Assembly: GCF_000166055.1 (NCBI RefSeq)
Contig: NC_014664.1
Span: 3,379,501 to 3,443,500, forward strand
Length of the DNA stretch: 64,000 nt
Source: Rhodomicrobium vannielii ATCC 17100
GTDB lineage: Bacteria > Pseudomonadota > Alphaproteobacteria > Rhizobiales > Rhodomicrobiaceae
Direction: 5' to 3'
The position numbers and the translations under genes were made by a program. How positions within the stretch are numbered: position 1 is the first letter of the stretch; each line of letters opens with the position of its first letter. Under the pieces are notes generated by a model that saw only the letters and a program-made list of their open reading frames with translations, did no database searches and was not told the origin of the DNA. Shown here in pieces: positions 6,528 through 58,933 of this stretch.

Positions 6528-8336
6528 ATGTGCGGCATAAACGGCGCTTATTCTTATCGTCCGGCAGCGCTTGAGGTCGATCGAGGGGAACTCCTCGCTA
6601 CGAGAGACCAAATGACAGCGCGGGGCCCCGACGGTGCCGGGGTCTGGCTCTCGGATTGCGGCCGCCTCGGTCTTGGGCATCGGCGCCTTGCGATCATCGA
6701 TCTGTCGGAGGCGGGCGCGCAGCCGATGCACAGCGCGGATGGCCGCTTCACCGTTACCTTCAACGGCGAAATTTACAACTACCTCGATTTGCGGCGCTCC
6801 CTCGAAGCGCGCGGACAGGTCTTCCGAAGCCATTCCGATACGGAAATCCTGCTGCACCTCTACGCAGAGAAGGGCGCGGAGATGGTACATGATCTGCGCG
6901 GCATGTTCGCTTTCGCGATCTGGGACGCGCACGCCCGCACGCTTTTCCTCGCGCGCGACACCTACGGCATCAAGCCCCTATATTATGCCGACGACGGCGG
7001 AGCGTTTCGCTTCGCGAGCCAGGTCAAGGCGCTGCTCGCAGGCGGTGCCGTGGCGCGTGAGCCGGACCCGGCGGGCATCGTCGGCTTTCATCTCTGGGGC
7101 GCGGTGCCGGAACCATTCACGCTCTACCGCGACGTGAAGGCCGTGCCCGCCGGGCATTCGATCCTCGTGCGCGAGGGAAGCGGCGCGGAGGCTCCCGTCG
7201 CCTATGCGAACATCGCCGCCGTTCTCTGCGAGGCCGCGCGCGCGGCTACCGGGCGGCAGGAGATCGGCCGCGTCGTGCGCAATGCGGTTCGCGACAGCGT
7301 GCGCGCGCATCTCCTCGCCGATGTCGATGTCGGGATCTTCCTATCGGCCGGGATCGACTCCGGCGCGATGCTCGGCTTGATGCGCGATGTCGGGCACGAA
7401 AGACGCATCGCCGTAACCGTCGCGTTCCGCGAATTTCGCGCGACCGCCGAAGACGAGGCGCCGCTTGCCGCCGAGATCGCAAGGCTTTACGGCGCGCGCC
7501 ACATCGTGCGCATCTTCGAGAAAAGCGAGTTCGAGGCCGATCTTCCGCTCATCCTCGACGCGATGGATCAACCCTCCATCGACGGCGTCAACACTTGGTT
7601 TGCCGCCAAGGCGGCGCGCGAAGCCGGGCTCAAGGTCGCGCTCTCCGGCCTCGGCGGCGATGAGCTGTTCGGCGGTTATCCGAGCTTCCGGCAGATCCCG
7701 CGCTGGGTGAGTTTTCTCAAGGCGGCGAACGTCGTGCCGGGGGCGGGACGCGCAGCTCGCGTACTCGCCTCCCGCCTTGCGCCCGCCGCGTTATCGCCGA
7801 AAGCGCTCGCGCTCCTCGAATATGCGGGCACATTTCCGGGCGCTTACCTCGTCCGTCGCAGCGTCTTCCTTCCGTTCCAGCTCGATACGGTCCTCGATCC
7901 GGGGCTGCTACGCGATGGCCTGGCGCGGCTGCAAACGCTGAAAAGCCTGCGCGCGACGATGACACCGGACCCGAAAACCGCTGTGTCGCGGGTCGCCGCT
8001 TTGGAGAGCGCCAACTACATGCGCAACCAGTTGCTGCGCGACGCCGATTGGGCGGGCATGGCGCATGGTCTCGAAATTCGCACGCCACTCGCGGACTTCG
8101 AGCTTCTCAAGGCGCTCGCGCCCTACCAGCACCGCTTCCGGGGCGCGGCGGGAAAACAGGCGCTCGCGGAGGCGCCGTCCGTGCCCCTGCCCGATGCGGT
8201 GGTGAACCGGAGCAAGTCCGGCTTCGGCGTGCCGATCGGCGCATGGCTCGCGCGCGCGGCCCAGATGAAAGCGCCCGCTCGAAAGGGCGACGTCTCGCGG
8301 GCCTGGGCGCTGCATGTCTATCAGGCGTCGGGTTAG
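6528..8336 (+). CDS. asnB: Asparagine synthetase-type glutamine amidotransferase (AsnB family)
   Basis: This 602-residue cytoplasmic protein has a class II glutaminase domain starting MCGINGAY, where Cys2 becomes the N-terminal nucleophile. A C-terminal ATP-pyrophosphatase domain follows. The P-loop reads FLSAGIDSGAM near residue 270, a variant of the common SGG(L/I)DS. SGLGGDELFGGYP follows near 375. Genuine asparagine synthesis is possible, but the gene heads a polysaccharide cluster. In such clusters AsnB homologues amidate sugar carboxyl groups or make an activated amide, so that role is inferred from context. It sits 265 bases after eda and 4 bases before the flippase gene. Confidence 0.87.
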   Translation: MCGINGAYSYRPAALEVDRGELLATRDQMTARGPDGAGVWLSDCGRLGLGHRRLAIIDLSEAGAQPMHSADGRFTVTFNGEIYNYLDLRRSLEARGQVFRSHSDTEILLHLYAEKGAEMVHDLRGMFAFAIWDAHARTLFLARDTYGIKPLYYADDGGAFRFASQVKALLAGGAVAREPDPAGIVGFHLWGAVPEPFTLYRDVKAVPAGHSILVREGSGAEAPVAYANIAAVLCEAARAATGRQEIGRVVRNAVRDSVRAHLLADVDVGIFLSAGIDSGAMLGLMRDVGHERRIAVTVAFREFRATAEDEAPLAAEIARLYGARHIVRIFEKSEFEADLPLILDAMDQPSIDGVNTWFAAKAAREAGLKVALSGLGGDELFGGYPSFRQIPRWVSFLKAANVVPGAGRAARVLASRLAPAALSPKALALLEYAGTFPGAYLVRRSVFLPFQLDTVLDPGLLRDGLARLQTLKSLRATMTPDPKTAVSRVAALESANYMRNQLLRDADWAGMAHGLEIRTPLADFELLKALAPYQHRFRGAAGKQALAEAPSVPLPDAVVNRSKSGFGVPIGAWLARAAQMKAPARKGDVSRAWALHVYQASG

Positions 8337-8340
8337 CCGC

Positions 8341-9699
8341 ATGACCAGCGCCATCGCCGCTTTCAGCAGGCGCCTTCCCCTCGGCCTCAACCGCATCGAA
8401 GGGCGCGGATTTCTGGCCAGCATGGCCACGCTCGTCAGCGGGCAGACTGTGGCGGCCGCGATCCCGATCGTGTTCGCGCCCATCCTCGGCCGCATCTACA
8501 CGCCGCACGACTACGGCCTCCTCGCAGCATTCATCGGAATCGCCGTCGTTCTCGGCGCGGTCGGCAACTGGCAATATTCGCAGGCGCTGCTGGTCGAGAC
8601 GGATGAAGACCGCGCGGCCCGACTCGTCAAGATCTGTTTCTGCACGTCGCTCATCACCGCCGCCGCTTCGCTTGCCATCGCGAGTGGCCTCGCGCTGATC
8701 CCTTCCATCGCGAGCGCGCTGGGGCTTTGGCTCTTCGCCCTGCCGCTCATGGCCTTCGTGTCCGGCGTGACAAGCTGCCTCGTCGCCGTGGCAACCCGGC
8801 GCAGCGATTATCGGTTCGTCGCCACGATGTCGGCTGTCGCCGCGCTGGTGAGTTCGGTCGTGTCGCTCTACCTCGGTTGGATGGGCTACGGCTTCAGCGG
8901 CCTCGCGGCGGGTTATCTGGTGATGAACCTGACGCAGGTTCTGGCCTTTGCGTATCGCCATTCGTCCGCGCTCGCAGCGATCTGGCGCGTCCCGCTCAGC
9001 GGCGCGACCTCGCTCGCGTTGTCAGAGCGGAAATACCCGCTTTTCACCGCGCCCGGCTACATCATGCGCGAACTGGCGCAGGGTATTCCCGCGCTATCGC
9101 TGAATTTCGTCGGCGCCTCGGCGCTGGCCGGACAGTTCTCGCGCGCATGGACGCTGCTCACCCTGCCGATCAACCTCGTCGGCATATCCCTCTCGCTCGT
9201 GTTCCAGCGAGCCGCCGCGCGCGAACTTCAGGAAACCGGCACGTGCTGGCCGATCTACCGGAAAACGACGCTCTCGCTCATTGTCGGCGCGCTGCCATGT
9301 GTGATCCTCGCGTCCTGGGCCGCACCCGCGCTGTTCACGTTCTATCTCGGGCCACAGTGGGAAGAGGCGGGCTATATGGCGCGGTTGCTCGCGCCGATGA
9401 TGTATCTGCGCATGATCGCCGGACCGATCTGGCCCGTCTTCTTCCTGTTCCGCGCGAACACGCTCGAATTCGCCATCGCGGCCCTTCAACTGGCGCTGAT
9501 CGCAGGCGGCACGGCGCTCGTCATCGCCTTCCACCGCCCGCCAATCTGGCAGATCGCGACCTTCGTGGTGGTCAGTTCGGCGATCAGTGCCCTGCAAATT
9601 TACATGACGTGGCGGCTGGCGCGGCCCGCTTCGCCCAACGCCCACCAAGCCGCAACGGATCGACAGACGGAGGATCATCCCTCATGCAAAACTACTTGA
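8341..9699 (+). CDS. Polysaccharide flippase, Wzx/MATE-like membrane protein
   Basis: The product has about 452 residues and roughly 12 hydrophobic helices spread over its full length. The opening pattern (a soluble lead, then LASMATLVSGQTVAAAIPIV and APILGRIYTPHDYG) is typical of Wzx-like O-antigen or polysaccharide translocases, which flip lipid-linked repeat units across the inner membrane. I chose the ATG at 8341, just after the asnB stop; an ATG at 8314 would overlap asnB by 23 bases. The 3' end overlaps the FkbM gene by 16 bases. Substrate is unknown. Confidence 0.86.
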   Translation: MTSAIAAFSRRLPLGLNRIEGRGFLASMATLVSGQTVAAAIPIVFAPILGRIYTPHDYGLLAAFIGIAVVLGAVGNWQYSQALLVETDEDRAARLVKICFCTSLITAAASLAIASGLALIPSIASALGLWLFALPLMAFVSGVTSCLVAVATRRSDYRFVATMSAVAALVSSVVSLYLGWMGYGFSGLAAGYLVMNLTQVLAFAYRHSSALAAIWRVPLSGATSLALSERKYPLFTAPGYIMRELAQGIPALSLNFVGASALAGQFSRAWTLLTLPINLVGISLSLVFQRAAARELQETGTCWPIYRKTTLSLIVGALPCVILASWAAPALFTFYLGPQWEEAGYMARLLAPMMYLRMIAGPIWPVFFLFRANTLEFAIAALQLALIAGGTALVIAFHRPPIWQIATFVVVSSAISALQIYMTWRLARPASPNAHQAATDRQTEDHPSCKTT

Positions 9700-10439
9700 A
9701 ACGAGCGGTTCGGAAAGCTGGCAGGCTCGCAGTCGTCGACACAGCCTATCTCTATTCCCGACACGAGCAGGTGCACCTCAAACGCATCTTCAGAGAATTC
9801 GACGTCGATCTCGTGATCGATGTGGGAGCCAATCGCGGTCAATACGCGACCATGCTGCGCCAGCGCGTGGGCTACAAAGGCGCCATCGTCTCGGTGGAGC
9901 CGATCCCGGATCTGGTCGAGCATCTCCGACACATTTCGCGCGACGATCCGCTCTGGTACGTGGAGCCCGTGGTGCTCGGAGACAGGCACGGCCCGCACAG
10001 GTTTCACATCATGGCGGACAGTCAGTGCAGTTCGCTGAACGAGCCGTCCTTCGCGGAAACGGACGCTTTTCGCGAGCAACTGGCGGTCAGCGACAGCATC
10101 ACGGTTCAGGGCGAAACGCTGGACAGCCTTTTCGACCGCTGGTCCCAGAAGATCGGCGCGCGCAACCCCTTCCTGAAACTCGACACGCAGGGCTCCGACC
10201 TCGCGATCCTGAGCGCCGCGCCCGACACGCTCCCGAAGCTGATCGGTTTCCAGAGCGAGCTTTCGATCAAGCGCCTGTACGAGAACACGCTGCCGATGGA
10301 GGAAGCCCTGCTGAAATACAAGGCGCTCGGTTTCGACATCAGCGCGCTCGTGCCGAACAACGCGGGGCACTTCCCTTATCTCGTTGAAATCGACTGCATC
10401 ATGTTGCGTCGCGGGCTTCGCGACATCACCCACGGTTAG
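9684..10439 (+). CDS. FkbM family SAM-dependent methyltransferase
   Basis: A 251-residue protein. The SAM-binding glycine motif VIDVGANRGQYA lies near residues 43-54, followed by VSVEPIPDL (acidic motif II) and the FLKLDTQGSDL segment that is characteristic of FkbM-type methyltransferases. Members O-methylate sugars or polyketides; here a sugar of the surface glycan is the natural inference. The ATG at 9684 lies inside the end of the flippase gene. The frame stays open far upstream to 8727, but that part is only a shadow of the flippase gene and should not be annotated. Confidence 0.86.
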   Translation: MQNYLKRAVRKAGRLAVVDTAYLYSRHEQVHLKRIFREFDVDLVIDVGANRGQYATMLRQRVGYKGAIVSVEPIPDLVEHLRHISRDDPLWYVEPVVLGDRHGPHRFHIMADSQCSSLNEPSFAETDAFREQLAVSDSITVQGETLDSLFDRWSQKIGARNPFLKLDTQGSDLAILSAAPDTLPKLIGFQSELSIKRLYENTLPMEEALLKYKALGFDISALVPNNAGHFPYLVEIDCIMLRRGLRDITHG

Positions 10440-10443
10440 CGCG

Positions 10444-11679
10444 ATGGAATCGCTCGATCAAACGAAGCCCTTCAGTCGTCGCGATGCAGTCGAGACGCAC
10501 GCCGCCGGTACTGACGCTGTTTCTTCCTGCGCGCCGGAATCCATTTCGCGCGAGAACACGGCGGGCAAGACAATCCTCTTTGTTCAATATACCGACCCGG
10601 CGCTCTATCCGCCGCTCGAACGCGCGGCGTGGATGCTCGCGGCGGCGGGCTGGCGCGTCCGCTTCATCGGCATCGCGGCCGAGAACAGCGCGCTCACGCT
10701 GGCCCCTCGTCCCGGCATCAGTTGCAGGCTTCTCCGCCATCGCTCCGATCCGGTTTCGAGGCTTCTATCCTATGTGCGCTTCGCGGCTGCATGTATCGGC
10801 GAGGCGCGCCGCTTGCGGCCGGACGTCGTCTATTGTTCAGATTTCCGAAGCTTCCCCATCGGCTTGGCCCTTGCATCGACCACGCGCGTAAAAACGGTTT
10901 TGCATGAGCATGACAGCCCGATCGTTGGCGGAGGGCTCGCCGCCTCAGCGCTGCTGAAGGCGCGGTCAGCGTTCGCGCGGCGGGCGACATTATGCGTGAT
11001 CCCGCAGGACGAACGCGCCGCGCGCTTCCGCTCGGCAACCGGAGCCGCCCGCGTCGTCGTGGCGAACAACTGCCCCTCGCTCGCCGAACTGGTGGAGCCC
11101 GCCCCGAAGCCGGAGGACGCGCTCGCGCTCTGGTATCATGGCTCGATCAGCCCCGATCAGTTCCCCGAAACGCTGATCGAAGCGATGCGACTGCTTCCGT
11201 CCGATGTGCGGCTCGATTTCGCCGGATATGAAACCATCGGCAATTGCGGCTATGTCGACCGTTTTCTCGGCCTCGCCGACGCGGCCGGCCTTGCTGCGCG
11301 CGTTCGCTATCTCGGCGCGTTTCCAGAGCGCGCGAAACTGCTCGAAAGGGCGAGCGAAGCGCATATCGGTCTCGCCCTTCTCGCAAGGGCCTTCCGCGAA
11401 CCGATTGCGGGCGCGTCGAACAAGCCGTTCGACTATCTCGCGTGTGGTCTGCCGCTCCTCACCAACGACACCGCCGAATGGGACGCCTTTTTTGGCAACG
11501 CAGGCGTTTCCTTGGGCTGCGATCCATCCCGTCCCGAAGATATCGCGCGCGCGGTGACATGGTATCGCAACAATCCCGGCGAGCGGCGCGCCATGGCCGA
11601 ACGCGGGCGACAGAAAATCCGTGATGTCTGGAACTATGAAACCCAGTTCGCGAAAGTGATCGAGGCTCTGAATGCTTGA
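10444..11679 (+). CDS. Glycosyltransferase, GT-B fold (family 4-like)
   Basis: The product has about 411 residues. A Rossmann-like N-terminal half (LFVQYTDPALYPPLERAAWM, then VVYCSDFRSFPIGLALA) precedes a GT-B C-terminal half with LALWYHGSISPDQFPETLIEAM, EAHIGLALL and SNKPFDYLACGLPLL near residues 325-340. The last segment corresponds to the nucleotide-sugar site of GT4-like enzymes. I prefer the ATG at 10444, 4 bases after the FkbM stop, over an in-frame ATG at 10384 inside that gene. The gene overlaps the next by 8 bases. Donor and acceptor are unknown. Confidence 0.82.
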   Translation: MESLDQTKPFSRRDAVETHAAGTDAVSSCAPESISRENTAGKTILFVQYTDPALYPPLERAAWMLAAAGWRVRFIGIAAENSALTLAPRPGISCRLLRHRSDPVSRLLSYVRFAAACIGEARRLRPDVVYCSDFRSFPIGLALASTTRVKTVLHEHDSPIVGGGLAASALLKARSAFARRATLCVIPQDERAARFRSATGAARVVVANNCPSLAELVEPAPKPEDALALWYHGSISPDQFPETLIEAMRLLPSDVRLDFAGYETIGNCGYVDRFLGLADAAGLAARVRYLGAFPERAKLLERASEAHIGLALLARAFREPIAGASNKPFDYLACGLPLLTNDTAEWDAFFGNAGVSLGCDPSRPEDIARAVTWYRNNPGERRAMAERGRQKIRDVWNYETQFAKVIEALNA

Positions 11680-50414: not shown

Positions 50415-52051
50415 CTACGCCGCCAGTTGCAAGCCGGGCTGCTTCCATTCCCAGGGCAGCAGCTCATGGAGTCGGCTTTGCGGCTGGCCTGCGATGCGGG
50501 CGAGCACATCGGCCAGCCAAGCCATCGGATCGATGCCGTTGAGTTTGGCCGTCATGATCATCGTCATCATAAAGGCGGCCCGGTCGGCGCCGCGATCTGA
50601 ACCGGCGAAGAGCCACGACTTTCTTCCGAGCGCAAAACCTCTCAGCGCTCGTTCGGCCGAGTTGTTGCTCAGGCAGATGCGGCCGTCGCCAAGGAAAGCG
50701 GCGAACCGATCCCAGCGCTTGAGCAGATAATCGATGGGCCTGGCGACGGAAGCCGAGCGCGACAATCGCGAGCGCTCCTCGCCAAGCGAGGTTTTCAGAT
50801 CGGCCAGAAGCGGCGCGCTTTGCTTCTGGCGCACGCGCAGGCGCTCGCTGGCGGGAAGGCCGTTGATGGAGCGCTCGATGTCGAACAGCGCGTCGATGCG
50901 CTTGACCGCTTCCAGCGCAATCGGGGAGATGGCCGGCGCCTGTTTGCCGCGCTTCGCGTTGGCGGCGATGTCAGCCAGTTCGAAGAACTGGCGCCTGGCG
51001 TGCGCCCAGCACAGCGCCGAGACGATGGCGCCTTTTTCGCGCGCCGGATCGTAAAGCCCGTTATAGCCGCTATAGGCGTCGGCCTGCAAAATGCCGGCGA
51101 AGTCTCGAAGATGGCTCTCGGGATGCTCCTGCCTTCGGTCTCGCGAAGCGTAGTAAAGCGCGGCCGGCGGCGCGGTCCCGCCAAAAGGGCGATCGTCTCT
51201 GACATAGGTCCAGATGCGGCCGGTGACTGTCTTGCCTTTCGCCAGGATCGGCACCGTCGTGTCGTCGCCAAACAACCGTTCGGCCGAAAGAACATGGGCC
51301 TCGATCAGCGCCTGGAGCGGTTGCAGCGCCGCCATGCAGGACCCAACCTGATCGGCCAGCGTCGAGACGGAAAGTTCGACGCCTTCGCGCGCATACCGCT
51401 CGCTTTGCCGGTTGAGAGGCTGGTGCTGGCCGAACTTCTCGAACAAGATCATGGCCAAAAGGCCCGGCCCGGCAAAACCGCGCGGCGTTGCATGAAAGGG
51501 CGCCGGCGGTTGCGCGATCGCCTCGCAGCACCGGCAGGAGAACTTCTCGCGCACCGTTTGGATGACTTTCCAGCGGCGCGGAACAACCTCGAGCGTCTCG
51601 GTGACGTCCTCGCCGAGCTTCGACAGCTTCGTCGAGCCGCAAGACGGACAACATGTCGGCGCCGGGAGCACCACGCGCTCGCGCGGCAGATGCGCCGGGA
51701 AAGGCTTGCGCGATGGATGCTTGCGCGTACGAGGACTGGCGTGCCTTGCGTCCGGGCTGTGGCTGTCTCGGCGAGAAGCTCGTCCTCGGCCGCGGCTGTC
51801 TCCAGCTCTTCGAGCTGAAGCTCCATCTGCTCCAGGAGCCGCGCCTTGTGCTCCGAGCGGCTACCGTAAAGCACCCGCCGCAGCTTCTCGATCTCGAGCC
51901 TCAGATGAGCGATCAGCGCGTCCGTGCTGGATGTCGCCGCGCGAGCGCGAGCCGCAACGGCCTCGGCGGAAAGGCGGGCGGCGCGCTCGGCGAGGATCAT
52001 CGCATGCGCGGCGGCAAGGTCGGAAGGAAGAGCGTCAAGCGGCGTGGTCAC
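50415..52051 (-). pseudogene. tnpC: IS66 transposase TnpC, frameshifted
   Basis: The N-terminal part (start 52051, MTTPLDALPSDLAAAHAMIL, then a coiled coil ending RRVLYGSRSEHKARLLEQME) and the C-terminal DDE part (GDDTTVPILAKGKTVTGR, LQADAYSGYNGLYD, LSNNSAERALRGFALGRKSW) lie in different frames. The frames meet near 51724-51727. Removing two bases from the CGCG run there restores the family stretch RKHPSRKPFPAHLPRERVVL. A two-base insertion, real or a sequencing error, explains it. Confidence 0.85.
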
Positions 52052-52096
52052 CCGACAAGAGAATCATGGTTCGCCAACGTTTTCAAAGGCAAACCG

Positions 52097-52444
52097 TCAG
52101 CCAACCGAAGTCGGTCTCCAGGTTTTTTGCGGATTGCGCCAATCGATCCCGGAGAGCAGATAGCCAAGCTGCGCGGGCGAAATCGAGATCGCGCCGTCAG
52201 CCGGGCTCGGCCACAAGAACCGGCCTTTCTCCAGACGCTTCGTAAAAAGGCAGGCGCCCTGGCCGTCATGCCAGATCACCTTCAGAAGATCGCCCCGGCG
52301 GCCGCGAAAGCAAAACAGATGGCCGCTCAAAGGATCGCGCTGCAAAACCTCCTGGACCTGCAAGGACAGCGACGGGAAGCCCCTGCGCATATCGGTGTGA
52401 CCCGTCGCCAGCCACACCCGCACGCCGGTCGGAACCGGGATCAT
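52097..52444 (-). CDS. tnpB: IS66 accessory protein TnpB
   Basis: A 115-residue protein of the IS66 Orf2 family. It has VRVWLATGHTDMRRGFPSLS, DPLSGHLFCFRGRRGDLLKV and FLWPSPADGAISISPAQLGY, all standard. It overlaps tnpA by 4 bases and is needed together with TnpA and TnpC for transposition. The C-terminal YLLSGIDWRNPQKTW is complete. Confidence 0.92.
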   Translation of the reverse strand: MIPVPTGVRVWLATGHTDMRRGFPSLSLQVQEVLQRDPLSGHLFCFRGRRGDLLKVIWHDGQGACLFTKRLEKGRFLWPSPADGAISISPAQLGYLLSGIDWRNPQKTWRPTSVG

Positions 52445-52860
52445 GGTCTCCTCCCGTCGGCAATATCGAGAATGCGCTTCAACGCGCCCATGTCGGCGCC
52501 GGGGCCAACCCGCACGCGCCGCCCGTTCAAAAGCTCGATCTCGATGCGATTATCGGCGGCGGGCGCGTCACTGGCGCTGTGATCGTAGATCGTGTCGCGG
52601 CTCTTCCCTGGCGCCGTCAGAGAGACCGGCAGGAATGCCGGTGCGGGCTCTGGCTTCTCGTCGTTCTTGGCCAGCTTCCGCCAACGAAACAGAAGGCTTG
52701 GCTTGATCCCATGCCTGCGGGCGACCGCTGACACATTCACGCCGGGCTGCAAAGCCTCGGCGATGATCGCCTGCTTCTCGTCCTCGCTCCAGCGGCGCCG
52801 GGTATCAGCAACTACGGAATACCGGCGGGCAAAAGTATCTCCAGACATAGGCACGGGCAT
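52441..52860 (-). CDS. tnpA: IS66 accessory protein TnpA
   Basis: A 139-residue protein of the IS66 Orf1 family. The N-terminal helix-turn-helix reads RRWSEDEKQAIIAEALQPGV, then NVSAVARRHGIKPSLLFRWR. A C-terminal IEIELLNGRRVRVGPGADMG follows. I chose the ATG at 52860, behind AGGAG four bases upstream; a TTG at 52890 and an ATG at 52848 are alternatives. Confidence 0.88.
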   Translation of the reverse strand: MPVPMSGDTFARRYSVVADTRRRWSEDEKQAIIAEALQPGVNVSAVARRHGIKPSLLFRWRKLAKNDEKPEPAPAFLPVSLTAPGKSRDTIYDHSASDAPAADNRIEIELLNGRRVRVGPGADMGALKRILDIADGRRP

Positions 52861-52947
52861 AGCTCCTGTCGCGACAAGCGTCACAGACAAGACCTGTCTC
52901 TTACACGCCCCGCAAGGCGGCCCTCAGCGGAGGCTTACAGTGCACTA

Positions 52948-53795: not shown

Positions 53796-54092
53796 TCACC
53801 CCGCGCGCTTCAAGGGCTCGATCTGCGTGAGGGTATCGCCCAAGGCGTCCTCGGCGGTTTCGATCGCATGGCGGGCTTGCAGATTCATCCAGAAGTCCGC
53901 CGTCGTGCCGAAGAAGCGCGCAAGGCGCAGTGCCGTGTCGGGCGTCAGTTCCGTCTGCTCGGTCGCGAGACGCTCGATACGAGTGCGTGGCACGCCGATG
54001 GCGCGCGCGACAGCGCCTGCGGACAGGCCGAACGGCTTGAGGAACTCCTCGCGCAGAACCTCGCCTGGATGAATGGGGGGAAGCCTGGTCAT
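53796..54092 (-). CDS. higA: HigA-type antitoxin
   Basis: A 98-residue XRE-family antitoxin. The start MTRLPPIHPGEVLREEFLKP is the HigA hallmark, and the helix-turn-helix is GLSAGAVARAIGVPRTRIER. LTPDTALRLARFFGTTADFW follows. It binds and neutralises HigB and usually represses its own promoter. The ATG at 54092 lies 10 bases after higB. The frame continues upstream inside higB without meaning. Confidence 0.92.
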   Translation of the reverse strand: MTRLPPIHPGEVLREEFLKPFGLSAGAVARAIGVPRTRIERLATEQTELTPDTALRLARFFGTTADFWMNLQARHAIETAEDALGDTLTQIEPLKRAG

Positions 54093-54102
54093 GCTCGTCC
54101 TC

Positions 54103-54387
54103 TCAGTGATAATCCGTAAACTCCAAGTTTTCCGGGCCTTCCGCCGTCCATCTGAAGCACAGTCGGAACTGGTCGTTGACCCGGATCGAATGCTGGCCGG
54201 CGCGGTCGCCCTTGAGGGCTTCGAGCCGGTTCGCGGGCGGGATGCGCAGATCGTCCAGAACGCGCGCGGCATCCAGCATGACAAGCTTGCCCCGCGTCGC
54301 AGCGATCAGGTCGGATGGAAAGCCCTTGGGCACGCGGCGGCTCATCAGCGCAGCAAGCCGATCGTCCTTGAAGCTTTTGATCGCCAT
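54103..54387 (-). CDS. higB: HigB-type toxin (RelE superfamily mRNA nuclease)
   Basis: A 94-residue toxin. Typical stretches are IKSFKDDRLAALM near the N-terminus, LDAARVLDDLRIPPANRLEA in the middle, and HSIRVNDQFRLCFRWTAEGP near the C-terminus, with the conserved Arg of the ribosome-dependent nuclease. Toxin first, antitoxin second is the usual order for higBA. It is complete and likely functional. Confidence 0.92.
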   Translation of the reverse strand: MAIKSFKDDRLAALMSRRVPKGFPSDLIAATRGKLVMLDAARVLDDLRIPPANRLEALKGDRAGQHSIRVNDQFRLCFRWTAEGPENLEFTDYH

Positions 54388-54521: not shown

Positions 54522-55127
54522 TTGCATGGGCAGCCGGGCGGGCGGTGCCATTCGACAATCGATTTTTCGCAGGCGGATTTCTTCATCTCGCGGTCGGGCG
54601 CGGACGCTGCCATCGCGGAGCGCATCGCGCATATCCTCGAAGACGCGGGCTACCAGGTCATTCTCCAGCAATGGGACTTCGGCAACCGCAATTTCATGCA
54701 GGCGATGCACGAGGCACTTGCGAGCGATGCCCGCGTGATCGCGCTCCTGTCGCGTGACTACCTCGAAAGCGACCATTGCCTTGGCGAAGCGCTTAACAAG
54801 ATCGCTCACGACCCGCTCAACAAGAAATCGCGGCTGATCGTGATGCGTGTCGCGAACTGCACGCCGACCGGGCTGTTCGCCGCGCTCGCCTACTGGGATC
54901 TGGTGAAGCTCACTGACCCGGCGCTTCTCCGCGACGTGGTGCTGGCGGCCGTGAAGCCCGGCCGCGCGAAGACGGCGCACGACGCGGCCTCGCCCTTCCT
55001 CAAGCCTCCGGGCACGGTGCTGCACGACCACCGCCGAGGGTTACCCCTTCCGCCTGGGCGCTTATTCCATCGGTCATCGTCTTCTGCACACGCGCGTCGC
55101 GCACAGCCGCGCGCGCGTTATCCTTGA
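54522..55127 (+). CDS. TIR-domain protein, probably truncated
   Basis: Residues about 13-140 form a TIR domain: DFSQADFFISRSGADAAIAE, LQQWDFGNRNFMQAMHEALA, VIALLSRDYLESDHCLGEAL with the conserved Glu of TIR NADases. Bacterial TIR proteins of this kind deplete NAD+ in antiphage defence or act as effectors, usually with a C-terminal sensor. Here the C-terminus after about residue 165 turns into Arg/Ser-rich sequence, and another frame (EGYPFRLGAYSIGHR) reads better, suggesting a frameshift. The only start is a TTG at 54522, so the N-terminus is also doubtful. Confidence 0.68.
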   Translation: MHGQPGGRCHSTIDFSQADFFISRSGADAAIAERIAHILEDAGYQVILQQWDFGNRNFMQAMHEALASDARVIALLSRDYLESDHCLGEALNKIAHDPLNKKSRLIVMRVANCTPTGLFAALAYWDLVKLTDPALLRDVVLAAVKPGRAKTAHDAASPFLKPPGTVLHDHRRGLPLPPGRLFHRSSSSAHARRAQPRARYP

Positions 55128-55145: not shown

Positions 55146-56045
55146 TCAGTGCTTGAAACAGTTTTCCCGGTGCCAGTTCAAGAAATGAGGATGGGGGCGA
55201 TCGGCAAGTCGTGTTGGTGGGTTAGCCCGACCGCTTTTGTTTATGAAGGCACGAACGCTGTCGATGTCATTTACCTGGCGAGACACCAGTATTTCGAGGT
55301 CGTCGGAAAAACTGATCAGGCCACGATCGAACATCCAATGCGCAGTCCCGGAAAGCGCAATGCCGTTATTAACAACATCCGGACCGTTGTGTTCGACCGG
55401 CCGAATATGGGCAGCATCAACTTCGGCCCTGCCGCCGCCGTTGATCAGCTTTAGCCCAGTAATCGCGCAGCGCTCGTCATATGCCCGAATGACAATCTTG
55501 CGGAAAACGCGATCGCGCAGGATTCGCGAGGTCAACTGTTGCACCCGTTCTCTTGGCGAGTCGAACACGAATGGCTCCTGTGACTCTGCAAAACCTGATA
55601 AGGCTTCTGCCGAGCCAACCCTTGGGAGGAGCGGTTCTTGATCGGTGAGACCGCGATCAATGATGCGATTGAAGTCCTGAGGAGAAACAGGTCTCACGGC
55701 AGACTGCGCACGCCCAGAAAGCTTGCCGTGTTCATTCAACAGTCCACGCTCGACAGGTCCGTCAGCTTCCTTGAAGGGAACGTGATTTGCGAACTCCAGA
55801 AACGATCCAGGCTCAATGAGAGCTAAAAACATTCCAGGCGCTTTGGGGTCTTCGATAACCTGCTGAACGCGTGCGACTGCAAAATATCCACGAGTGCCAC
55901 TCACCTTGGATGGTTCCAGATAAACGATCCAATCTCCGACACTTTCCTGCACACGGCCAAGATAGTGCTTCGGAAACTGGTATCGTTCAGCGGGGCTGTC
56001 GTCGTAGATCGAATCGGATCGGTGGATGAATACGCTGAAGGTCAT
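55146..56045 (-). CDS. HNH restriction endonuclease
   Basis: A 299-residue protein. The C-terminal HNH domain has YDERCAITGLKLINGGGRAE, VDAAHIRPVEHNGPDVVNNG, IALSGTAHWMFDRGLISF, with the catalytic His in AAHIRP and the Asn and His after it. The N-terminal half (KHYLGRVQESVGDWIVYLEP, then FAVARVQQV) fits the ASCH/PUA-like DNA-binding part of such type II enzymes. It is intact. A stub of a C5-cytosine methylase lies 33 bases upstream on the same strand, and a Vsr gene diverges from it. Confidence 0.83.
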   Translation of the reverse strand: MTFSVFIHRSDSIYDDSPAERYQFPKHYLGRVQESVGDWIVYLEPSKVSGTRGYFAVARVQQVIEDPKAPGMFLALIEPGSFLEFANHVPFKEADGPVERGLLNEHGKLSGRAQSAVRPVSPQDFNRIIDRGLTDQEPLLPRVGSAEALSGFAESQEPFVFDSPRERVQQLTSRILRDRVFRKIVIRAYDERCAITGLKLINGGGRAEVDAAHIRPVEHNGPDVVNNGIALSGTAHWMFDRGLISFSDDLEILVSRQVNDIDSVRAFINKSGRANPPTRLADRPHPHFLNWHRENCFKH

Positions 56046-56077
56046 GATCTGATATTATCGCGCGCTCAAGGCCTTGC

Positions 56078-56287
56078 CTAGCCATTGGTTGCCTGTGTGA
56101 AGCAGCGCGCAATACATTCGAGCCAGACGAGTAGATCGTCGTCTCCTGCAGATCCCTCGCCCAGCCCTCCCGGACCAGCAAAGAGATCTACGATGCCGAA
56201 AGTAGGGGGCAAATCAAGCTCCTGACGAATGTTGTCTTGGTGTATATCAATTGCGGAGGCGAACGCCAGGAGGCATGTGACGGATAT
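56078..56287 (-). pseudogene. C5-cytosine methyltransferase, N-terminal remnant
   Basis: The frame contains DLPPTFGIVDLFAGPGGLGEGS, the opening SAM motif of C5-cytosine DNA methylases, and then runs for only about 23 more residues before a stop. The catalytic PC motif and recognition domain are gone. The start is not clear. It is likely the remains of the methylase that once paired with the HNH nuclease next to it, removed by an internal or 3' deletion. Confidence 0.68.
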
Positions 56288-56732
56288 AGTGGACAAGACG
56301 ACCCGATCGAGGATGATGGCCGGGATCAGGGGCAAGGACACCAAGCCCGAACTGGCCTTGAGACGGGCATTGCACGCCCGTGGCTTGCGTTATCGCTTGC
56401 ATGTGAAGGACATCTCGGGTCGGCCTGACCTCGTGTTCTCAAAGCACCGGGCGGTGGTCTTCGTGCATGGTTGCTTCTGGCACCGCCATACAGCTTGTCG
56501 CTATGCTACCGACCCCTCTACTCGCGTGGAATTCTGGCAGTCCAAGTTCGACGCTAACACCGCTCGGGACTTCGCGGTGCGGAGCGAACTCCTCGCGGGC
56601 GGATGGCGAGTGGCAACGATCTGGGAATGCGCGCTTAGAAAACCTCATCAAGTAGAGGTGGCTGCCACTCTTCTTTCCGTCTGGCTGCGTGATGGCCGTG
56701 CCAAGCTGGAGATCGGAGAAACAGACCTGTGA
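56277..56732 (+). CDS. vsr: Very-short-patch mismatch endonuclease (Vsr)
   Basis: A 151-residue endonuclease that nicks T:G mismatches left by deamination of 5-methylcytosine. The family pattern is intact: RSRMMAGIRGKDTKPELALR, RYRLHVKDISGRPDLVFSKH, VFVHGCFWHRHTACRYATDP, and RVEFWQSKFDANTARD. The catalytic Asp is in GRPDLVF and the zinc ligands are His and Cys. Start is a GTG at 56277 behind AGGAGG with short spacing. Vsr genes sit next to C5 methylases, which fits the stub beside it. Confidence 0.9.
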   Translation: MTDIVDKTTRSRMMAGIRGKDTKPELALRRALHARGLRYRLHVKDISGRPDLVFSKHRAVVFVHGCFWHRHTACRYATDPSTRVEFWQSKFDANTARDFAVRSELLAGGWRVATIWECALRKPHQVEVAATLLSVWLRDGRAKLEIGETDL

Positions 56733-56854
56733 TGTAAAAGCGCGCTTGGCGATAGATGCCGCGATATCTGTCGATTATAGAAAAATGATAATGGCTTCAA
56801 TAAGTTTCACACATCACAAATAGATATCTGTCAATCCAGCAGGAGGATAAGTTG

Positions 56855-57361
56855 ATGAGTGGAAAAAAGTTAAATGCAGAAGACAAGGCCGAGATCATCG
56901 CCAACTACATCGGGATCAACTTCCTGGCGGCTGCAAAGGAGCTTCGCGAGCTTCAGGATCTGAAGCCCGATGTCTTCCTGAAGGTCGCGGAAATGGCGGG
57001 ACTTGGCAAACGCGTCGCCTATGCGCTGGCGAGGATCGCGCGCCAGTTCGATGACCTGGGCGTGCCCGAGGAGCGGCTTCATGCGATCGGCTGGACGAAA
57101 CTCCAGATCGTCGGGCGCTACCTCACCGAGGACAACGCGGACTATCTCCTCGAACTCGCCGAGACGAGCACGGTCTACGAACTCGAGTCCCGCCTTCGCG
57201 GCGAGATCCCGATCGAGGATGCCCGCGTGGTGACGTTGTACCTCTCGCCGGATCAGCACGAGCGTTTCAAGGTGAAGCTCATCGCGCATGGCGCCGTTCC
57301 GAGCGGCAACGGCCTCCTTCGTAAGGAGAAGGCTCTTATGGCGATCATCGACGGCAAGTAG
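56855..57361 (+). CDS. Hypothetical protein
   Basis: A 168-residue soluble, mostly helical protein beginning MSGKKLNAEDKAEIIANYIG. It includes FLKVAEMAGLGKRVAYALAR and AIGWTKLQIVGRYLTEDNAD, which look like helix pairs of a DNA-binding or regulatory fold. I do not recognise the family. AGGAGG lies eight bases before the ATG at 56855, a strong ribosome site. It has lower GC upstream and sits between vsr and an IS481 remnant, so it is probably acquired. Confidence 0.62.
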   Translation: MSGKKLNAEDKAEIIANYIGINFLAAAKELRELQDLKPDVFLKVAEMAGLGKRVAYALARIARQFDDLGVPEERLHAIGWTKLQIVGRYLTEDNADYLLELAETSTVYELESRLRGEIPIEDARVVTLYLSPDQHERFKVKLIAHGAVPSGNGLLRKEKALMAIIDGK

Positions 57362-57482: not shown

Positions 57483-58685
57483 TCACTTGGCGGCCTGGAA
57501 GACCTGAGCCAAATGCGCCAAGCCGGCGCCGCCAGTGGAGCAAGGCGGGCGAAGCATTTGTGGCAGCCATGTCGCTGCACATCGCGGATGCATGACCATG
57601 GCAATAATACTCAGAAAGAAAAAGCAAAGCATCCCTAGTGACGTTAATTGCACCACCGTGCTCAATCTATTGCCAACGGGGCAAGCCCCGACGAAGCCAA
57701 TGAGCTTTATTGCGCCGCCTAAGATGTTTAGTCCCGGCATTTGATGGATTGGATCGATTTTGAATCTTTCCGGCTCATTCGTCCAGCATTTACAGATGAA
57801 CTCATAAGGCGTGAGGCCTTTGAGGGTCTTTAGTCGGCGAGCAAAGTTATAGGCGTTGATGAAGTCCGATAGATGGGTTTCGAGCTGCTCGTGACGGTCG
57901 TAGTGATAGCGTTTGACCGTCGCCTCCTTGATCGTCCGGTTCATTCGCTCGACCTGGCCGTTTGTCCAGGGATGCTTGACCTTGGTGAGGCGGTGCTCAA
58001 TGCCGTTCTCGCTGCATCGCATGTCAAACATGTGCGTCATGTATCTGGCCGTTGGTCCATCGGCATAACGCGGCGGAAACGTGAACTGGATGCCGTTGTC
58101 GGTGAGCACCGTGTGAATCTTGTAGGGAACTGCCTCTATCAGGGCGACGAGGAAGGCTGAAGCGGACGTCCTGCCGGTCTTTTTGACGAGTTGCACGAAG
58201 GCGAATTTGCTCGTGCGGTCAATGGCGACGTAGAGATAGAGCTTGCCTTCGGCCGTCTGCACTTCGGCTATGTCGACATGAAAATAGCCGATCGGATAGG
58301 ACTTGAACTTCTTCTTGGCGGGCTTGTCGCCTTCGACGTCCGGCAGCCGAGAAATACCGTGGCGTTGAAGACAGCGATGCAGCGACGAGCGAGTCAGATG
58401 CGGTATCGTCGCCTGTAGCGCATAGAGGCAATCGTCGAGCGGCAAGAGCGTATGCTTGCGGAAGGCGACGATTATCGCCTCTTCCTCGACCGACAGAACC
58501 GTGGATTTCGGCTCTTTCGGTCCAGTCGGCACATCGGCGACGGATGAGCGCTTCTTCCATTTCGAGACCGTCTTCGTGTTGATGCCGTAGCGCTTGGCCA
58601 GGGCCCTCAAGCTCTCTTGACTATGCTGTATCGCTCGACGGACCGCCTCAGTCGTTGTGGCGCTCCCATGAAGAATTTGTCCTAT
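57483..58685 (-). pseudogene. IS481-family transposase, degraded at both ends
   Basis: The core is a standard IS481 DDE transposase: ALAKRYGINTKTVSKWKKRS, GYFHVDIAEVQTAEGKLYLY (first Asp), TVLTDNGIQFTFPPRY (second Asp), HRLTKVKHPWTNGQVERMNR (Glu). The family start M-G-Q-(I/V)-L-H-G-S-A is present, but its ATG is ATA at 58685-58683; a usable frame begins only at 58610. At the other end the usual finish after HQMPGLN is lost and the frame reads 80 codons into flanking DNA. Confidence 0.78.
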
Positions 58686-58933
58686 AGCGCATCCTTCCAG
58701 CCGAGGGAGAATAATGCACCATCAAAATCTGGGATTAAACATCTAAGTGAGAGTGCGCGGTAGGAAGATGGTAAGTTTACGTCTAAGCAAATCCGGAGCG
58801 CATGGGGCAGATTCGTCTTGCCGGTGTTGTTCTCTCCGATAACACAGGTCGTATTTTGACTAACGCGGATATCTAAAGTCTGTAATGATCTAAAATTTCT
58901 GATGACGATGCGGCTGATTCGCATGAATTTCAT
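58682..58933 (-). pseudogene. OLD-family ATPase/nuclease, N-terminal remnant
   Basis: The frame starts MKFMRISRIVIRNFRSLQTL and continues to the Walker A motif CVIGENNTGKTNLPHALRIC, typical of the ABC-like ATPase of OLD-family nucleases, some of which are antiphage enzymes (for example GajA of Gabija). It is cut after about 80 residues where the IS481 remnant begins; the nuclease domain is absent. The subfamily cannot be told. Confidence 0.62.

Follow-up and report, generated by a model that had tools for sequence, protein, structure and literature searches.

A probable stand-alone, modification-dependent EVE-HNH endonuclease beside the remains of a C5 methylase/Vsr module in Rhodomicrobium vannielii

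Fusions of an EVE domain to an HNH nuclease are described, in the part of PMC7641849 that treats them, as putative type IV enzymes, and for the EVE-HNH enzyme VcaM4I the relevant section of PMC7897488 gives the HNH site as H224, N241, D250 and D254. For winged-helix fusion nucleases, the expectation set out in the pertinent part of PMC11037411 is that modification-specific enzymes stand alone, and that the others come with a protecting methylase. The locus studied here, in the genome of R. vannielii, seems at first sight to break this rule. In the window (the whole 64-kb stretch of DNA that was analysed) the stub of a C5 methylase gene lies between an HNH endonuclease gene and a vsr gene, and a sequence-only reading of the locus had argued that a restriction enzyme deprived of its methylase should be toxic. 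Our results make it likely that the product of the HNH gene is an EVE-HNH endonuclease that depends on DNA modification and acts on its own, and that the stub and Vsr are the leftovers of another module. In the mechanism that we propose, the N-terminal EVE/PUA domain would bind a modified base that it flips out of the invading DNA of a phage or plasmid, after which the C-terminal HNH domain, which probably dimerises, would cut nearby. Host DNA without that modification would be spared, so no partner methylase would be needed. Both the modification dependence and the defence function are properties that we infer for this protein. The stub and Vsr, in turn, would come from a separate defence module whose C5 methylase/Vsr pair resembled those that accompany Mza or DISARM genes, and which would have been deleted beyond the first motif of the methylase.

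The predicted EVE-HNH endonuclease gene lies at 55146..56045 on the minus strand, as a full-length open reading frame of 299 aa with a Pfam HNH_2 match (E 8.7e-11), in agreement with the earlier description of the enzyme as complete. The protein is predicted to consist of an EVE/PUA-like part (about aa 1-135), a low-confidence linker (about aa 136-170) and an HNH domain (about aa 174-299). Its catalytic positions are H213, N227, H236 and D240, which align with H224, N241, D250 and D254 of VcaM4I. As to whether the catalytic residues are conserved, all four are kept and are invariant in 18 sequences from both identity tiers; the C-terminal HNH domain that defines an EVE-HNH endonuclease is thus present with its catalytic residues intact. 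Moreover, the window copy deviates at 3 of 143 conserved columns, compared to a median of 2 in 54 sequences, and the terminal branch of the gene has an ordinary length (rank 19 of 57). Since both its conserved-column departures and its branch length are like those of its relatives, the gene, judged by its sequence, is not decaying. One of the earlier proposals was that the nuclease may be inactive; it would then be a remnant like its neighbours. The island around it does contain truncated genes and transposase ORFs; however, the full-length ORF, the retained catalytic positions and a level of conservation equal to that of the relatives, with no excess of changes in the gene, make an inactive remnant highly improbable.

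The fold of the protein was modelled with AlphaFold2 using 57 aligned sequences (mean pLDDT 76.7); an earlier model from 14 sequences, which reached a pLDDT of 44.7, was set aside. Block means were 75-92 across aa 1-130 and 83-92 across aa 231-299, while the low-confidence stretches were 136-170 and 203-207. The best PDB matches of the model in Foldseek were two modification-dependent endonucleases, the EVE-HNH enzyme VcaM4I (E 8e-10) and the SRA-HNH enzyme TagI (E 1.6e-5). A point against our reading is that, over the whole length, the two domains do not fit those of VcaM4I as a single body (rmsd 18.8 in Foldseek; Z 11.7, rmsd 16.0 in VIA-align). With VIA-align, the N-terminal domain superposed on PH1033, which we take to be an EVE-type protein (Z 12.2, rmsd 2.6, 123 residues), on the EVE protein PSPTO5229 (2eve; Z 10.3, rmsd 2.8, 118 residues), on human THYN1 with 5mC DNA (Z 10.0, rmsd 3.0, 122 residues), on the N-terminal domain of McrB (Z 9.7, rmsd 2.8, 118 residues) and on YTH domains (Z 8-9), and no SRA protein was among the 50 matches listed. 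Residues 176-299 superposed on TagI (Z 12.6, rmsd 3.0, 108 residues). In sequence, the HNH domain matched VcaM4I (E 1.7e-7) and TagI (E 4.4e-6, or 1.8e-8 with a profile), and a BFVD search gave matches mainly to viral HNH proteins.

The predicted fold places the N-terminal part in the EVE/PUA superfamily, with weak support from sequence. Of the 15 N-terminal domains compared with Pfam, 3 gave a weak EVE match (E 0.0049 at best), and the window protein's own N-terminal domain had no Pfam match. When the N-terminal profile was compared with a profile of 18 canonical EVE proteins, the E-value was 7e-4 and the probability 27%, against E 0.34 and 0.29 for two controls; the canonical profile was built from 18 of 20 EVE loci, as 2 gave no sequence by the motif filter. 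Other results also count against our reading: the comparison of the N-terminal domain with the EVE domain of VcaM4I reached an hhalign E of 0.13, both profiles being shallow, and a search of PDB sequences with the N-terminal profile returned no match up to E 10.

The HNH protein has 458 confirmed relatives in a scan of species genomes. The best 80 of these 458 are 68-75% identical to it across nearly their full length and belong nearly all to the Alphaproteobacteria; BLAST detected relatives of Vsr or of the stub at none of those best 80 loci, and no neighbouring ORF family is shared by more than 14 of them. The family is also present on plasmids, and among the matches listed 25 of 40 are annotated just as 'HNH endonuclease'. 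In profile searches for C5 methylases and Vsr, neither was found near close relatives (at least 60% identity) at any of 96 loci, a set that includes plasmid, viral and class-level loci, with flanks of up to 5-8 kb (several shorter at contig ends), at least 2 records counted twice (L183/L008 and L184/L054) and a few loci with a partial HNH gene. Within these flanks, the close relatives are therefore encoded alone, without a partner C5 methylase. A class-wide search found a full-length relative in 24 of 385 genomes (12 close and 12 distant), a patchy spread; these 24 include a relative with an in-frame stop (G145), and a partial relative in G099 was left out. Scans of viral contigs gave few full-length relatives, and two of them none.

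Some individual loci deserve mention. The relative in Beijerinckia mobilis (L014:5001-5900) is split into two ORFs, which suggests that the family may include broken genes. A Sinorhizobium medicae plasmid (L228), outside the 96-locus count, carries a vsr about 12 kb from a close-subfamily nuclease gene, which counts against our reading, together with a short VcaM4I-related HNH gene adjoining IS66 genes. On a Rhizobium phaseoli plasmid (L227, 8464-14305), a VcaM4I-related HNH gene (48%, HNH part) ends 4 bp before vsr, and a DNA cytosine methyltransferase gene lies about 3 kb beyond vsr; in this plasmid a modification-sensor-type nuclease apparently shares one operon with Vsr.

The stub ORF (88 aa, 56078-56344, minus strand) represents the start of a C5 methylase. 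Searches with it in Pfam and NCBIfam gave nothing at E <= 1, and PADLOC gave two weak methylase matches across aa 48-64 (E 0.0087 and 0.048). Its aa 1-66 align to the 556-aa methylase ORF of a locus from the same genus, L122 (67% identity, E 1e-22), and the 542-aa methylase of a locus from the same order, L131, begins with 22 aa that match aa 45-66 of the stub (86%, E 7e-9). In the alignment with intact relatives the methylase homology stops at 56147, the tail of the ORF (56078..56146, minus strand) not being alignable to a methylase, and on these comparisons we place a deletion or recombination junction at about 56147. Because part of the ORF (56277-56344) is antisense to the first codons of vsr, the surviving methylase is shorter than the ORF suggests; since, in addition, the start of the L131 methylase corresponds to 56212, the certain remainder may be just about 22 codons carrying motif I, LFAGPGG (56147..56212, minus strand; 86% over 22 aa to L131). 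The claim that the methylase keeps only its first SAM motif is therefore borne out. The DNA upstream of the HNH start had no match longer than 14 bases in the fetched loci, the own genome aside.

The vsr gene (56277..56732, plus strand, within ORF 56229-56732) is intact. MTDIVD forms the N terminus of the two most similar Vsr proteins, and this supports the GTG at 56277 as the start and a complete protein of 151 aa, as had been proposed. The ORF matches Pfam Vsr (E 5.5e-31) and scores above the cut-off of TIGR00632, and E25, D51 and H69, to which roles in Vsr are assigned, are invariant in 16 sequences. Relatives of the stub and Vsr indicate where the pair may have come from. The Vsr of L122 is 71% identical to that of the window, and the L122 pair adjoins genes matching MzaE, MzaD and MzaC (Pfam AIPR, DUF4420 and Z1); the L131 pair adjoins genes matching DrmA, DrmB and the NERD-helicase family. 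DrmMII is the best PADLOC match for both methylases, and no relative of the window HNH protein was found in either locus. In the 64-kb window, tblastn (E <= 1e-3) with queries from L122 and L131, two of those proteins being partial, found no MzaC, MzaD, MzaE, DrmA, DrmB or NERD-helicase, and no match there was given by the GHKL gene and the HNH gene that belong to a second Vsr module of the genome, described below, or by the helicase of another locus, L117. Classification of the window as a Mza or DISARM system was rejected, as the core genes MzaC/D/E or DrmA/DrmB were not found. Among 18 Vsr loci (17 from relatives and one from R. vannielii itself), 4, including a 3.7-kb contig, lacked a C5 methylase within the stretch retrieved; an orphan vsr is therefore not unusual, and the window Vsr is the probable orphaned partner of the lost methylase.

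Had the HNH protein once been the restriction partner of the lost C5 methylase, it would now be the toxic or silenced orphan of a type II system. The adjacency of stub and HNH gene in the window fits this history, and so does L117, where about 300 bp separate a 40% identical HNH relative from intact C5 methylase and Vsr genes. More generally, and counting against our reading, C5 methylase and Vsr are present at 4 of 17 loci of distant relatives (35-48% identity, stretches of 16-19 kb), although these four (L117-L120), one of which has just a fragment of the HNH gene, were chosen because HNH and Vsr share a contig, and the other 13 have neither gene. However, the methylase/Vsr pair of L117 continues, in the same direction, into the gene of a 1072-aa SNF2-type helicase; the relatives of the stub in L122 and L131 have Mza or DISARM neighbours and no HNH relative; none of the 96 close-relative loci has a C5 methylase or Vsr in its flanks; and the protein is predicted to carry an EVE/PUA-like sensor domain. 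We consider a type II relic very unlikely. A restriction-modification pairing was likewise rejected for the locus as it stands, its cognate methylase being truncated and no C5 methylase being found in the flanks of the 96 close-relative loci. The toxicity argument of the sequence-only reading rested on a partnership of HNH enzyme and methylase, and since this partnership is not supported, the paradox falls. Among the options offered then, a nuclease that targets modified DNA is the best supported, by the predicted EVE/PUA plus HNH architecture and by the solitary occurrence of the family.

Alternatively, the nuclease could read the mark of the neighbouring C5 methylase, an incompatibility that would have led to the loss of the methylase. 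In support of this, L119 mirrors the window: there the C5 methylase is full-length and accompanied by Vsr (8751-10575), and it is the EVE-HNH gene, about 1.7 kb away, that is a fragment (aa 45-104, at 6886-7095). Furthermore, in the part of PMC11037411 that covers them, some 4mC or 6mA methylases beside winged-helix modification-dependent nucleases are reported to be frame-shifted and inactivated. Such a conflict is nevertheless unlikely: R. vannielii keeps another intact C5 methylase, L117 holds both genes in intact form, the stub is explained by ordinary decay in an island with many mobile-element genes, and C5 methylases are not depleted in genomes with a close relative (3 of 12; Fisher p 0.55) or any full-length relative (10 of 24; p 0.67) compared to 143 of 385 in the class. 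Exclusion of C5 methylases by HNH relatives at the genome level was accordingly rejected, the two tests giving no signal. A combined reading is similarly unlikely: the alphaproteobacterial subfamily would read a mark other than 5mC/5hmC, and the broken pairs (the stub here, the nuclease fragment in L119) would be traces of a conflict that keeps nuclease and C5 methylase from sharing a locus.

A search of the genome for a matching C5 methylase gave one PF00145 match, at about 1.62 Mb (L121:6125-10485), an intact gene in a separate module. Its neighbours are a GHKL ATPase (Pfam HATPase_c_3, E 3e-19) and Vsr, and an opposite-strand gene has a weak HNH match below the cut-off; the module resembles the MORC/paraMORC restriction operons as presented in the relevant part of PMC2292703. 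By BLAST, the similarity between this methylase and the intact relative of the stub is confined to motif I and 84 residues at the C-terminal end (42%). The earlier proposal that methylation may come from another gene is thus right in that such a gene exists, but the gene belongs to a module of its own and nothing ties the HNH protein to it. That the HNH enzyme cuts unmodified DNA and is held back by methylation from elsewhere, for example from this methylase, is extremely unlikely, given its company of GHKL ATPase and Vsr; moreover, PF00145 has no match in 9 of the 12 genomes of the class that carry a close HNH relative, so such C5 protection is not general. The same methylase also weighs against the preferred reading, a modification-dependent nuclease, as it would be self-harming if its product were cut by the HNH protein. 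Because 5mC in the context of the 1.62-Mb methylase would have this effect, the EVE-HNH protein would read another mark or context, or its expression would be controlled. The IS66-type transposase genes at 51449-52890 of the window look broken, and a copy of IS66 with a 544-aa transposase, near-identical by eye, lies close to the other Vsr module (L121:3136-5609); the same element is therefore found near both Vsr loci.

The remaining genes around the locus complete the picture of the island. Beyond the far end of the HNH gene, as seen from the stub, a TIR-domain ORF (54522..55127, plus strand; TIR_2 match at aa 20-130) is probably truncated at its 3' end, and before it a HigB-like toxin gene (full-length Pfam match) and an overlapping HTH protein gene (53796-54387) are likely a toxin-antitoxin pair. 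Downstream of vsr there is a 169-aa ORF (56852-57361) with no Pfam match above cut-off and no PADLOC family, and then an integrase-core (rve) ORF and an 83-aa AAA-type ATPase fragment, OLD-like by reading (57483-58933), which are more island debris. That nuclease, stub and Vsr lie side by side most likely just reflects the decay of a defence island. Such adjacency can mimic a restriction-modification system, and recognising it removes the apparent paradox of an unprotected restriction enzyme. In addition, a widespread nuclease family can now be named as a probable modification sensor, which makes its substrate directly testable.

Finally, how does the locus compare with the known systems? The stub and Vsr can be recognised as related to the L122 and L131 pairs, which carry the PADLOC names of Mza and DISARM, but differ from them in that the window methylase is truncated and none of the nine other module genes is in the window. 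The SBD-HNH phosphorothioate-dependent enzymes (NCBIfam NF045808) match the C-terminal half of the HNH protein (E 3.9e-29), but the score is 101.7 against a cut-off of 180 and only aa 152-298 are covered. Phosphorothioate dependence was rejected, since just the HNH half matches NF045808 and the sulfur-binding part is unmatched. TagI (PDB 6ghs) shares the HNH domain, but is an SRA-HNH enzyme, whereas the leading N-terminal matches of the window protein are EVE-type proteins. With VcaM4I (PDB 6yex), the EVE domains gave no clear match by sequence, and one metal-ligand position is His (H236) in the HNH protein and Asp in VcaM4I. Mapping the base-pocket residues of VcaM4I onto the HNH protein by sequence gave no reliable correspondence, and for this reason the modification that is read may differ from that of VcaM4I. 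In other respects VcaM4I resembles the window protein: it has the same order of EVE/PUA and then HNH domain, a similar length (309 aa) and equivalent catalytic positions, and it is the top fold match, with an HNH domain also related in sequence (the E 1.7e-7 match).
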